A stretch of DNA of 51,827 nucleotides from an uncultured Chlorobiaceae bacterium (lineage in GTDB: Bacteria; Bacteroidota; Chlorobiia; Chlorobiales; Chlorobiaceae): positions 1-51,827 of the forward strand of contig CAIPYV010000037.1 in NCBI GenBank assembly GCA_903869365.1. The letters run 5' to 3'. Position numbers and translations under genes: made by a program. Below the pieces are notes generated by a model. It saw nothing but the letters and a program-made list of their open reading frames with translations. It made no database searches and had not been told where the DNA came from. Positions 13,059 through 30,510 of the stretch are shown here, in pieces. The stretch's first letter is position 1. Each line of letters opens with the position of its first letter.

Positions 13059-13589
13059 TTAAGATTTGTTGCGATTGAAGAGCTGCATCCATCGGTCAAC
13101 TTCTTGATCGGTTAGCAATTGTTCGTTGAATTTTTTCTCTTTGAAGGAGAGATGTTTGTCACCGGTGCGTTTGCCTTGCTGAGGCTCCGCACTCTCTGTC
13201 CTTTTGAGCTGCAGTGCAAATACCTCGGATTTAACGCACTTGGCGCCGAATGCTGCTGCATACCGGCGAATCTCATCGTCCGAACTAACAATAGTAACCA
13301 TTTTTACTTTTGGGTTCAACGATTTTACGTAATCTATTATCCATAGATCGGCGCTTTTCGAGGCAGGGGTATACACGACATGCAATGGAACACCGAAAGC
13401 ACACTCTCTCTGACCGCCTTTACCATCATACACAATGGTGACAGGGCATGGTGTATTCCGCTGAAAACGGAGCAGACGTCTCTCTGTCTCCTGTCGCAAT
13501 GCATCAAGCGATGTTGAGGTCGGAGAAGGGTAAAGTTTATGAATTAAATTATATCCGTCCACCACAATTTCGCTGTACACTGCTTTCAT
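13059..13589 (-). CDS. YacP-like NYN-domain RNase family protein
   Basis: About 176 residues of NYN (PIN-like) fold. VDGYNLIH near the N-terminus carries the first catalytic Asp, followed by VTIVYDGKGG, SADLWIIDYV and VTIVSSDDEIRRYA with further acidic residues. In Bacillus the homologue YacP/Rae1 cleaves mRNA on the ribosome; the role here is inferred only from the fold. ATG 13616 is possible, but ATG at 13589 is preceded by AGAGCAGAGA and starts closer to the conserved domain. The gene is transcribed divergently from mraZ and may share its regulatory region. Confidence 0.8.
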   Translation of the reverse strand: MKAVYSEIVVDGYNLIHKLYPSPTSTSLDALRQETERRLLRFQRNTPCPVTIVYDGKGGQRECAFGVPLHVVYTPASKSADLWIIDYVKSLNPKVKMVTIVSSDDEIRRYAAAFGAKCVKSEVFALQLKRTESAEPQQGKRTGDKHLSFKEKKFNEQLLTDQEVDRWMQLFNRNKS

Positions 13590-13679
13590 GGCGATCTCTG
13601 CTCTTAAAATATACATAGCTGCTATCGGATAAAATAGCTGAATATTTTTTTAGTGCGTCCTTTTTTTCTACATTTTAGG

Positions 13680-13709
13680 TGGTGAATTGTGGTAAAAAAT
13701 GGGTGGAAA
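13680..13709 (+). promoter_or_regulatory. MraZ-box array upstream of mraZ (three 10-bp direct repeats)
   Basis: TGG-leading repeats begin at exactly 13680, 13690 and 13700 (TGGTGAATTG, TGGTAAAAAA, TGGGTGGAAA), i.e. one helical turn apart. MraZ is known to bind arrays of TGGG-type boxes separated by 5 nt, in front of its own gene, and to repress the dcw operon. The spacing, position (about 105-135 nt before the mraZ start) and sequence all fit an autoregulatory operator. Confidence 0.75.
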
Positions 13710-13813
13710 TACTCGTTTCAATGATGTTTTTCTTTTTTTTTCCCGGCTGCAGGTGATATCAGCTGGTTTTGTGGGCAGTTATTGCATGGCAGGAACCGAT
13801 TTCAATCATCATC

Positions 13814-14284
13814 ATGGCCGGTTTTATTGGAAAAGAGAGACATACCATTGATGAAAAGGGGCGACTGATGATTCCTGCCAGGTTTCGCAGGTGTTTCGGT
13901 AAAGGAGCTGTTATCGGCAATGAAGAACGTACATTAGCTGATTCGGAAGGGCTTTATATTATGAAAGCGCCTGATCGCTCCCTTGAGCTTTATGAGCCGT
14001 TTATCTGGGCTGATATGAGAAAAACTATTTCTGCTCTTTCTGATTTCAACCCTGAAGAGCGTCTGTTGAAGACGTTGATGTATGAAAGCCTTGAAACCGT
14101 GGAACTCGACCGTCAGGGAAGAATTGCACTGTCAAGGGAGTTTCTTGAGCATGCGGGTATTACAAAAGATGTCGTGATTATAGGTGGCGATACAAAAATG
14201 ATTATCTGGGATCCGGAGCGCCTTCTGTCAGTTTTGCAGGAGAGTGCAGGGCGTTTTTCGTCTCTTGCAGGAAGGTATTTTTAA
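13814..14284 (+). CDS. mraZ: Transcriptional regulator MraZ
   Basis: 156 residues with two SpoVT/AbrB-like halves. The first is HTIDEKGRLMIPARFR, the second VELDRQGRIALSREFLEHAG; both show the DxxGR core of MraZ DNA-binding loops. MraZ assembles into a ring and represses the division and cell wall operon that it heads. The frame is open from 13769, but ATG at 13814 begins MAGFIGKERH, the usual MraZ N-terminus. A three-repeat MraZ-box array lies upstream. rsmH starts 6 nt after its stop, the conserved mraZ-rsmH order. Confidence 0.95.
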   Translation: MAGFIGKERHTIDEKGRLMIPARFRRCFGKGAVIGNEERTLADSEGLYIMKAPDRSLELYEPFIWADMRKTISALSDFNPEERLLKTLMYESLETVELDRQGRIALSREFLEHAGITKDVVIIGGDTKMIIWDPERLLSVLQESAGRFSSLAGRYF

Positions 14285-14289
14285 CTCGG

Positions 14290-15255
14290 ATGGCACAATA
14301 TTCTTATCACGAGCCAGTTCTTGTGTCAGAAATTCTCGCTTTTCTTGTCACAAAACCTGGAATTTATGTTGACGGGACTCTTGGAGGTGGCGGTCATTCG
14401 CTGGCGATACTGCGTGCTCTTCAAAAGGCGGGTTATAGTGAAGGGTCTGTGCTGATAGGGATTGACCAGGATGACGCTGCATTACAGGAGGCCGCTGAAA
14501 AGCTCAAGGATTTCGAAGCTCGAACGGTTCTGGTTAAAGGGAATTTCCAGGCGATAGGCTCTATGGTCAAGAGTGTCTGCGGTGAAAAAGGGTTACAGCC
14601 GAAGGTTACGGGTATTCTGCTTGATCTTGGGGTATCATCGTTTCAGATTGATACTGCAGCACGGGGGTTCAGTTATCTCAGGGAAGGACCGCTTGATATG
14701 AGGATGGATATGGACTCTGCGCTCAGTGCTGGTGATATTGTCAACACCTATGAGGAGAAAGAGCTTGCAAGGCTTTTTTACCGGTATGGAGAGGAGCCCA
14801 GAAGTCGCAGCATTGCCAGGGCAATTGTAGCATACCGTCTTAAAAACGGGTCGATTAACAGGACACAGGAACTTGCCGGGATTATTCGCGGAAATGCTGT
14901 CGGTCGGGATAAGATTATCAAGACACTTTCAAGAGTATTTCAGGCATTGAGAATTGAGGTGAACCGTGAGCTCGAAGTGCTCCGCCGTGCGCTTTATGAG
15001 AGTATCGATTGCCTTGATGATCATGGCAGAATGGCAGTCATCAGTTATCACTCTCTTGAGGACAGGATCGTCAAAACTGTTTTTGCCGAGAAAGCTAGGA
15101 GCGACTGGGGGCCCAAAGGTGTCGGTTTGAGGGAGCCTCTTGAACGGGGCACCATATCACTCGTTACCCGTAAACCTCTCGTTGCAGCCGAGCAAGAGAT
15201 CGATGCAAACCCGAGGGCAAGAAGTGCGAAATTGAGGGTCATTGAAAAACTATAA
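14290..15255 (+). CDS. rsmH: 16S rRNA (cytosine1402-N4)-methyltransferase RsmH
   Basis: 321 residues. It transfers a methyl group from SAM to N4 of C1402 in the decoding centre. Motifs: the N-terminal YHEPVLVSEIL, the SAM loop YVDGTLGGGGHSLAIL, GILLDLGVSSFQID, REGPLDMRMD, a VFQALRIEVNRELEVL helix, and VISYHSLEDRIVK near the C-terminus. All are standard for MraW/RsmH. The next gene (ftsL-like) has its proposed GTG start 14 nt after the RsmH stop. Confidence 0.97.
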   Translation: MAQYSYHEPVLVSEILAFLVTKPGIYVDGTLGGGGHSLAILRALQKAGYSEGSVLIGIDQDDAALQEAAEKLKDFEARTVLVKGNFQAIGSMVKSVCGEKGLQPKVTGILLDLGVSSFQIDTAARGFSYLREGPLDMRMDMDSALSAGDIVNTYEEKELARLFYRYGEEPRSRSIARAIVAYRLKNGSINRTQELAGIIRGNAVGRDKIIKTLSRVFQALRIEVNRELEVLRRALYESIDCLDDHGRMAVISYHSLEDRIVKTVFAEKARSDWGPKGVGLREPLERGTISLVTRKPLVAAEQEIDANPRARSAKLRVIEKL

Positions 15256-29217: not shown

Positions 29218-30510
29218 ATGGCATTTGAGCTGGATCCCGGACTGTTCGACAGTGACCAGGGCAAAGGGGTTACCATACGAATCGTTGGCGTCGGTGGTTG
29301 TGGTGGCAATGCTGTAAACAATATGATTGACCGTAAAATAAGTGGCGTTGAATATATTGTGTTCAACACAGATCGTCAGGCACTCCTTAACTCGAAAGCT
29401 CCTCTCAGGGTGCAGATAGGGAAGAAAGCAACCAACGGGCTCGGTGCCGGTGCTGATCCTGCCAAGGGTCGGCAGGCGGCTGATGATGACCGGGAAATAA
29501 TTGCCGCTCAGCTGAGAGGCGCAGATCTTGTGTTTATTGCCGCAGGTATGGGCAAGGGTACCGGCACCGGAGCCGCCCCTGTTATTGCTTCGATCGCCAG
29601 GAATATGGGCATACTCACCATCGGAGTTGTTACCAGACCGTTCAACTTTGAAGGCCAGGTCAAGGCGAAGATTGCTGACGGAGGGATCACTGAACTGCGT
29701 AAATATATCGATACGCTTATCCTCGTTGAAAATGAAAAGATACTGAGTATTGCCGAGGAGGGGGTAAGCGCTACTGAAGCGTTCAACATGGCCAATGATG
29801 TCTTGTACAGGGCTGCGAAAGGCATTGCGGATATTATTACCCGTCATGGACATGTCAACGTCGATTTTGCTGATGTTCGAAGCATCATGTCCGGTGCCGG
29901 AGATGCCGTTATGGGTTCTGCTGCGGCTGCGGGTGATCGCCGTGCACTGAAAGCTTCATCGGATGCGCTCAACAGCCCCCTTCTTGAAGGAGTATCAGTC
30001 AAGGGAGCCAAAGGCGTCCTGGTCAACATTACCGGCGAAGTGACCATGAGGGACATGTCGGATGCGATGAACTATATTGAAGAGCAGGTCGGCAGTGATG
30101 CCAAGATTATCAATGGCTATGTGGATGAACCCCAGGTATCGGGTGAAATAAGGGTGACGGTTATTGTGACCGGCTTCAAGCGAAAAGAGCAGACGGAAGG
30201 AAAAGAGCCTGTTGTCCGGCTTCCGGTTACTCCTGTGCAGGGGCTTCGATCAGGTCAGTCAGCTCCATCGGTCAGACATGCCGCGTCTATGTTTCCAGAG
30301 CGGCAGGAAGACGATTTGCGTATTCCTGCTTATATCAGAAGACAGTTATCGATACATGATCCTCGTGATGCCGAGAATAAGAAAAATGCTCCTCGTGAGG
30401 CAGATAATAATCCGTTGAATACCACTGGGAGTGGGAAGCACGAAGATAAAATTCAGAAAGGGCTGCCCGATACACCTGCTTATCTTCGCAGGAAGAACAC
30501 CGGAATCTGA
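29218..30510 (+). CDS. ftsZ: Cell division GTPase FtsZ, with two C-terminal-peptide-like motifs
   Basis: 430 residues. The GTPase domain starts [18 protein letters not shown]; the tubulin signature loop is [12 protein letters not shown], followed by the T7-region [11 protein letters not shown]. It polymerises into the Z ring. After residue ~325 a disordered linker follows. Two motifs resembling the conserved C-terminal peptide that binds FtsA and other partners are visible: [11 protein letters not shown] (about 366-376) and [11 protein letters not shown] at the very end (about 417-427). One copy is the norm, so the linker appears to carry an internal duplicate. GAGGAG lies upstream of ATG 29218. 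Confidence 0.98.

Follow-up and report, generated by a model that had tools for sequence, protein, structure and literature searches.

The window considered here is the whole stretch of DNA that was analyzed, 51,827 nucleotides of contig CAIPYV010000037.1 (assembly GCA_903869365.1), from an uncultured member of the Chlorobiaceae. Between a divergent NYN-domain gene and the division and cell-wall cluster that opens with mraZ and rsmH, the following features can be assigned:

13059..13589, minus strand: NYN_YacP gene, divergent and outside the operator (PF05991, 1.3e-24; tblastn adjacency)
13646..13651, plus strand: T-tract TTTTTT at the −35 position of a putative mraZ promoter, with a 17-bp spacer to TACATT
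13669..13674, plus strand: TACATT, −10-like element of the putative mraZ promoter, identified by conservation
13679..13682, plus strand: MraZ box 1, GTGG, predicted to overlap the transcription start (putatively at about 13681)
13689..13692, plus strand: MraZ box 2, GTGG, identified by conservation
13699..13703, plus strand: MraZ box 3, ATGGG, identified by conservation
13704..13813, plus strand: mraZ leader of about 110 nt, weakly conserved in an alignment of eight relatives
13814..14284, plus strand: mraZ, 156 aa from ATG 13814 (PF02381, 1.1e-22, in two stretches)
14290..15255, plus strand: rsmH (mraW), the next gene in the cluster (PF01795, 2.1e-99)

The start of mraZ is placed at ATG 13814 rather than at the mechanically chosen TTG 13769, because close similarity to eight relatives begins there and the leader ahead of it diverges. 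The predicted protein has two AbrB-like stretches with loops D-E-K-G-R and D-R-Q-G-R, its residues D13, K15, G16, and R17 are invariant in alignment with E. coli MraZ, and the solved structures that it matches are themselves MraZ proteins. Residues 26–37 represent about 12 extra positions after the first D-x-K-G-R strand, as compared with the MraZ proteins of E. coli and of G169, a genome of the same order. The NYN_YacP gene starts at ATG 13589 on the minus strand, with a longer reading from 13616. Beyond rsmH, where genes were assigned by reading their translations, the division and cell-wall cluster presumably runs on to ftsZ at 29218–30510.

A preliminary description of this DNA had reported three TGG-led repeats exactly 10 bp apart in front of mraZ, and this holds both in the window and in its relatives. 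On the plus strand, TGG starts at 13680, 13690, and 13700, that is, in exact 10-bp steps 5′ of mraZ, within TGGTGAATTG (13680–13689), TGGTAAAAAA (13690–13699), and TGGGTGGAAA (13700–13709). The conserved part spans 13679–13703 and reads, in order, GTGG, TGAATT, GTGG, TAAAAA, and ATGGG; the final six bases of the interval originally outlined (13680–13709) fall outside it.

In the order, 98 genomes were searched, of which 86 belong to the family of the window. Full-length mraZ matches were found in 83 of these 86; G200 and G202 have C-terminal remnants only, and G034 returned neither an mraZ nor an rsmH match, such that an array there is not judgeable. The reading frame is open in 82 of the 83, the exception being G032 (locus L057), with an internal stop at codon 70. 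Alignment of the upstream region across relatives, which had been proposed as a check, recovers the array in all 83 genomes with a full-length match: there are three TGG in exact 10-bp steps in 75, one GGG box in seven (box 2 in L014, L015, L018, L021, L026, and L136; box 3 in L049), and a 9-bp first step in one, L056. None of the six relatives with GGG in box 2 has the NYN gene beside mraZ.

The consensus from 52 aligned sequences is (G/A)TGG-N3-AAA-(G/A)TGG-(T/G)-AAAA-(A/G)TGGG. The TGG columns are invariant in this alignment because the set was chosen by the TGG pattern; independent evidence for conservation comes from the second spacer, whose A-tract played no part in the selection (1.8–2.0 bits at columns 15–18 and 1.4 at column 14), and from the eight off-pattern genomes in which the array is still recognizable. 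Past the array, 19 of 21 columns fall below 0.7 bits. In each of the two genera, distances between TGG triplets peak at 10 bp and at 20 bp.

A consensus scan for TTGACA/TATAAT-type promoters found none, and the promoter was therefore placed by conservation. Counted from box 1, columns −33 to −31 have T in all 52 aligned sequences, and, as judged by eye, both genera show the layout of T-tract, 17-bp spacer (also counted by eye), and TACATT. The TACATT element lies 4–8 nt before box 1 in all 82 family genomes with sequence at that position (the contig of L037 ends before the array and was left out), and reads TACCTT in L021 and L148. The distance from the last TGG to the mraZ ATG is 6–7 nt in 23 genomes and 16–117 nt in the other 60. 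Because the distance to the −10-like element is fixed at 4–8 nt while that to the ATG ranges over 6–117 nt, the array belongs to the promoter and not to the start codon. Placed 4–8 nt behind a conserved −10 element, it should cover the transcription start and the first transcribed bases.

The same spacing is found beyond the family. In the part of the order that lies outside the family, TGG–TGG distances peak at 10 bp and less so at 20 bp; for the phylum beyond the order, there are peaks at both 10 bp and 20 bp. A 10-bp TGG pair occurs in 12 of 12 loci (11 genomes) of the order outside the family, four of which have the triple, and in 27 of 30 loci of the phylum outside the order, 13 with the triple; these 30 were taken by best score from 137 genomes with a match and are not a random draw. 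With L104, L121, L074, L076, L078, L087, L090, L096, and L098 left out, shuffling gave a mean of 0.5 pairs and 0.01 triples for 10 order loci (observed, 10 and 3) and of 2.1 pairs and 0.03 triples for 23 phylum loci (observed, 20 and 8). A CCA control gave no excess at 10 or 20 bp. Reversed sequences retained a lower excess at 10 bp in three of four groups (25/40, 6/10, and 6/23 sequences), as expected where boxes read TGGT, and this control is thus not clean. A strict three-box rule does not hold, because box 2 reads GGG in six relatives and eight of the 12 order loci outside the family lack the triple.

MraZ boxes at the E. coli promoter Pmra were reportedly described by Eraso and co-workers in 2014. 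In E. coli K-12, the promoter scan returned a match of the form TTGACA-18-TAAACT, which ends at L119:583, and the first TGG follows at 592, with 8 nt between; the array itself, GTGGGAAATTGTGGGGCAAAGTGGG, has the same 10-bp steps behind the TAAACT −10. As in the window, Pmra thus has three TGG(G) boxes in 10-bp steps just behind the −10, before mraZ–rsmH. In the Chlorobiaceae, by contrast, the second spacer contains a conserved A-tract, a T-tract takes the place of TTGACA at −35, and the leader is often longer.

Two further systems are comparable, as far as excerpts of the relevant papers describe them. PmraBc of Burkholderia cenocepacia shares the 10-bp period (7-nt repeats with 3-nt spacers) and the position downstream of the −10, and its repeats likewise overlap the start, with a leader of about 100 nt; it has four repeats with measured binding and a measured start, whereas here there are three, with both binding and start predicted (excerpt of PMC7761207). 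In Mollicutes, the MraZ site consists of AAAGTG[T/G] repeats (Fisunov et al., 2016, via an excerpt of PMC8475190). These AAA-GTGG-type repeats also stand before mraZ, and on the M. genitalium chromosome the motif occurs at mraZ only, much as in the window's genome; the wording of the boxes is slightly different and the cluster is a short one of four genes (excerpt of PMC8475190).

The array is a real, strongly conserved feature of an ordinary kind, and our verdict is that it represents a known type of operator in another lineage. We are highly confident in reading it as an MraZ operator at which MraZ would occlude polymerase and lower the expression of its own cluster, acting as a local autoregulator. 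The preliminary description had likewise proposed an MraZ operator and autoregulation, and this proposal gains support, at the level of sequence, from the conservation of the array, its position at the likely start, the E. coli array, and the ruined array of G202 (below). In the mechanism that we propose, a ring-shaped MraZ oligomer would bind three TGGG-type boxes lying 10 bp apart on one face of the helix and separated by A-rich spacers. So bound, it would sit over the start of transcription from the mraZ promoter and over the first bases transcribed, and would block RNA polymerase, which would lower the expression of mraZ and of the downstream division and cell-wall genes; throughout the family, MraZ would act locally, through one strong site per genome.

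Excerpts of two papers bear on these steps. MraZ is said to form an octameric toroid; in Burkholderia it binds a fragment on which four such repeats overlap the mapped start, which in B. cenocepacia lies 100 bp upstream of mraZ (excerpt of PMC7761207); and Mycoplasma genitalium MraZ represses (excerpt of PMC8475190). Counting against the repression reading, Fisunov et al. are cited for activation by MraZ in mycoplasmas (excerpt of PMC7761207). For this lineage, binding by MraZ, the precise point at which transcription starts, and a repressing rather than activating role are all inferred.

These data suggest that the MraZ operator, both in its 10-bp spacing and in its location behind the −10, has been kept in green sulphur bacteria, far from the model organisms, and that the same operator has been kept in most of the Bacteroidota loci examined. 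Less expected are the single strong site per genome, the ruined array of G202, and a group with short leaders in which box 3 possibly doubles as a ribosome-binding site. Among the papers listed by a literature search that left subscription journals mostly uncovered, none concerned the MraZ operator in this lineage, as judged by title and the start of the abstract; a text search of PMC5089854 found no mention of MraZ sites.

An alternative reading, which we consider improbable, is that mraZ and the divergent NYN_YacP gene are both controlled from the array as a shared operator. Of the 81 family genomes that could be assessed (L037 and L068, being too short, are not counted), 59 have the NYN gene adjacent to mraZ and divergent from it, at a distance of 116–317 bp, an arrangement that would suit shared control. 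In the other 22 of the 81, each with at least 989 bp of upstream sequence, NYN was not found beside mraZ, yet all 22 have the array. Conversely, G065, a genome of the same order that is without mraZ and in which NYN is divergent from rsmH, contains seven intergenic TGG, no two of them 10 bp apart, so that NYN is kept there with no array left. Seen from NYN, moreover, the array lies beyond the mraZ promoter, on its far side. The gene-adjacency test thus rejects the shared operator, and the co-regulation of NYN suggested in the preliminary description is not borne out, although the array may have some side effect on NYN.

A second alternative, to which we give very little credence, is that the block has been kept only as a core promoter, early transcript, or ribosome-binding leader, with no role for MraZ. 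It would fit the overlap of the block with the predicted transcription start, and also the short leaders, where a box 3 placed 6–7 nt before the start codon, as in genus g2, could be a Shine-Dalgarno sequence. Short leaders of this kind occur in L042–L044 and L049–L068, a group made up of three genomes of genus g1 and every one of the 20 g2 genomes in which mraZ was matched. The array is nonetheless kept over the full 6–117 nt range of distances to the ATG, and the same boxes precede mraZ in E. coli as well as in most of the Bacteroidota loci covered. For the short-leader genomes we think it possible, if rather doubtful, that box 3 serves both as a DNA operator box and as an mRNA ribosome-binding (Shine-Dalgarno) site; if so, the abundance of MraZ would be tuned by a site under double selection.

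Genomes in which mraZ is lost or broken bear on this alternative from both sides. In G202, where only the C-terminal remnant of mraZ is left, the promoter block TATTTTTTTAGTGCCACCTTTTTTATACATTTT, with T-tract and TACATT, is intact, so that the −35 and −10 regions stay; the array, in contrast, is ruined and reads GTGGTAAAGGGTTGTAAAAG, with box 1 kept, a GGG 7 bp on, and box 3 gone. This argues against a block kept for promoter function alone. G200, however, retains a nearly intact array (ATGG, GGG, TGGG) before the C-terminal part of mraZ, the changes being GTGG to ATGG in box 1 and one spacer base, and G032 has an intact array before the mraZ with the stop at codon 70; retention in these two, which favors the promoter-only explanation, could be explained by recent breaks or by draft errors. 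All three genomes are drafts of 86–91% completeness. The promoter is retained in L122 (G200), L124 (G202), and L057 (G032), and G200 and G202 belong to the same genus. In eight mraZ-less genomes of another family (L123, L125–L131), no triple was present in the sequence covered around rsmH. The presence of the array with mraZ is therefore firm, while its loss with mraZ rests on two genomes (G065 and G202) against two (G200 and G032). Under the MraZ operator reading, these lineages show stages in the fate of an operator without its regulator.

The triple by itself is weak evidence, because the loose pattern TGG-N7-TGG-N7-TGG occurs 35 times in the 2.93 Mb genome of the window (12 forward and 23 reverse), as compared with 19 (9 and 10) in the reversed control. 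Within the intergenic region 13590–13813, a plus-strand triple arose in 72 of 20000 dinucleotide-preserving shuffles. That TGG recurs here by chance, the stretch being rich in G and T, as the abundance of loose triples might be taken to indicate, has practically no likelihood left and is already refuted by conservation: all 83 relatives in which mraZ is matched over its full length have the array, and four groups show a 10-bp excess.

A strict pattern that includes the A-tract has a single exact match in the genome of the window, located at this array. Across 61 family genomes it gave 48 exact matches in 46 genomes; 47 of these matches, as compared by eye with the mraZ positions, lie directly before mraZ, and the sole exact match away from mraZ is G049:C40:17790. 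Because 47 of 48 exact matches precede mraZ, MraZ looks like a local autoregulator. Two of the 47 come from G058, in which two contig-end pieces of mraZ (C58 and C111) are preceded by the same array, probably representing either a single locus split by assembly or a duplication. For the Chlorobiaceae, these matches support one strong site per genome, as compared with the many genes that E. coli MraZ is reported to affect (excerpt of PMC7761207), but they stop short of establishing a regulon confined strictly to that site. The operator points to an MraZ that, in this lineage, is dedicated to regulating the division cluster from one strong site.

With one mismatch allowed, the same 61 genomes gave 122 matches by hand count, 56 before mraZ (including the 47 exact ones) and 66 elsewhere, as compared with 41 for the reversed pattern, also counted by hand. 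Weaker further sites may therefore exist, and a strict three-box pattern would miss sites with two boxes. For the loose pattern, the matches listed for ten genomes of the order contained too many chance occurrences to be informative, with the exception of the site before mraZ in G169. Several of the 66 one-mismatch matches away from mraZ, such as those of the ATGGGCTCTCATGGCAAAAA type, recur near-identically across many relatives and perhaps represent conserved coding sequence.
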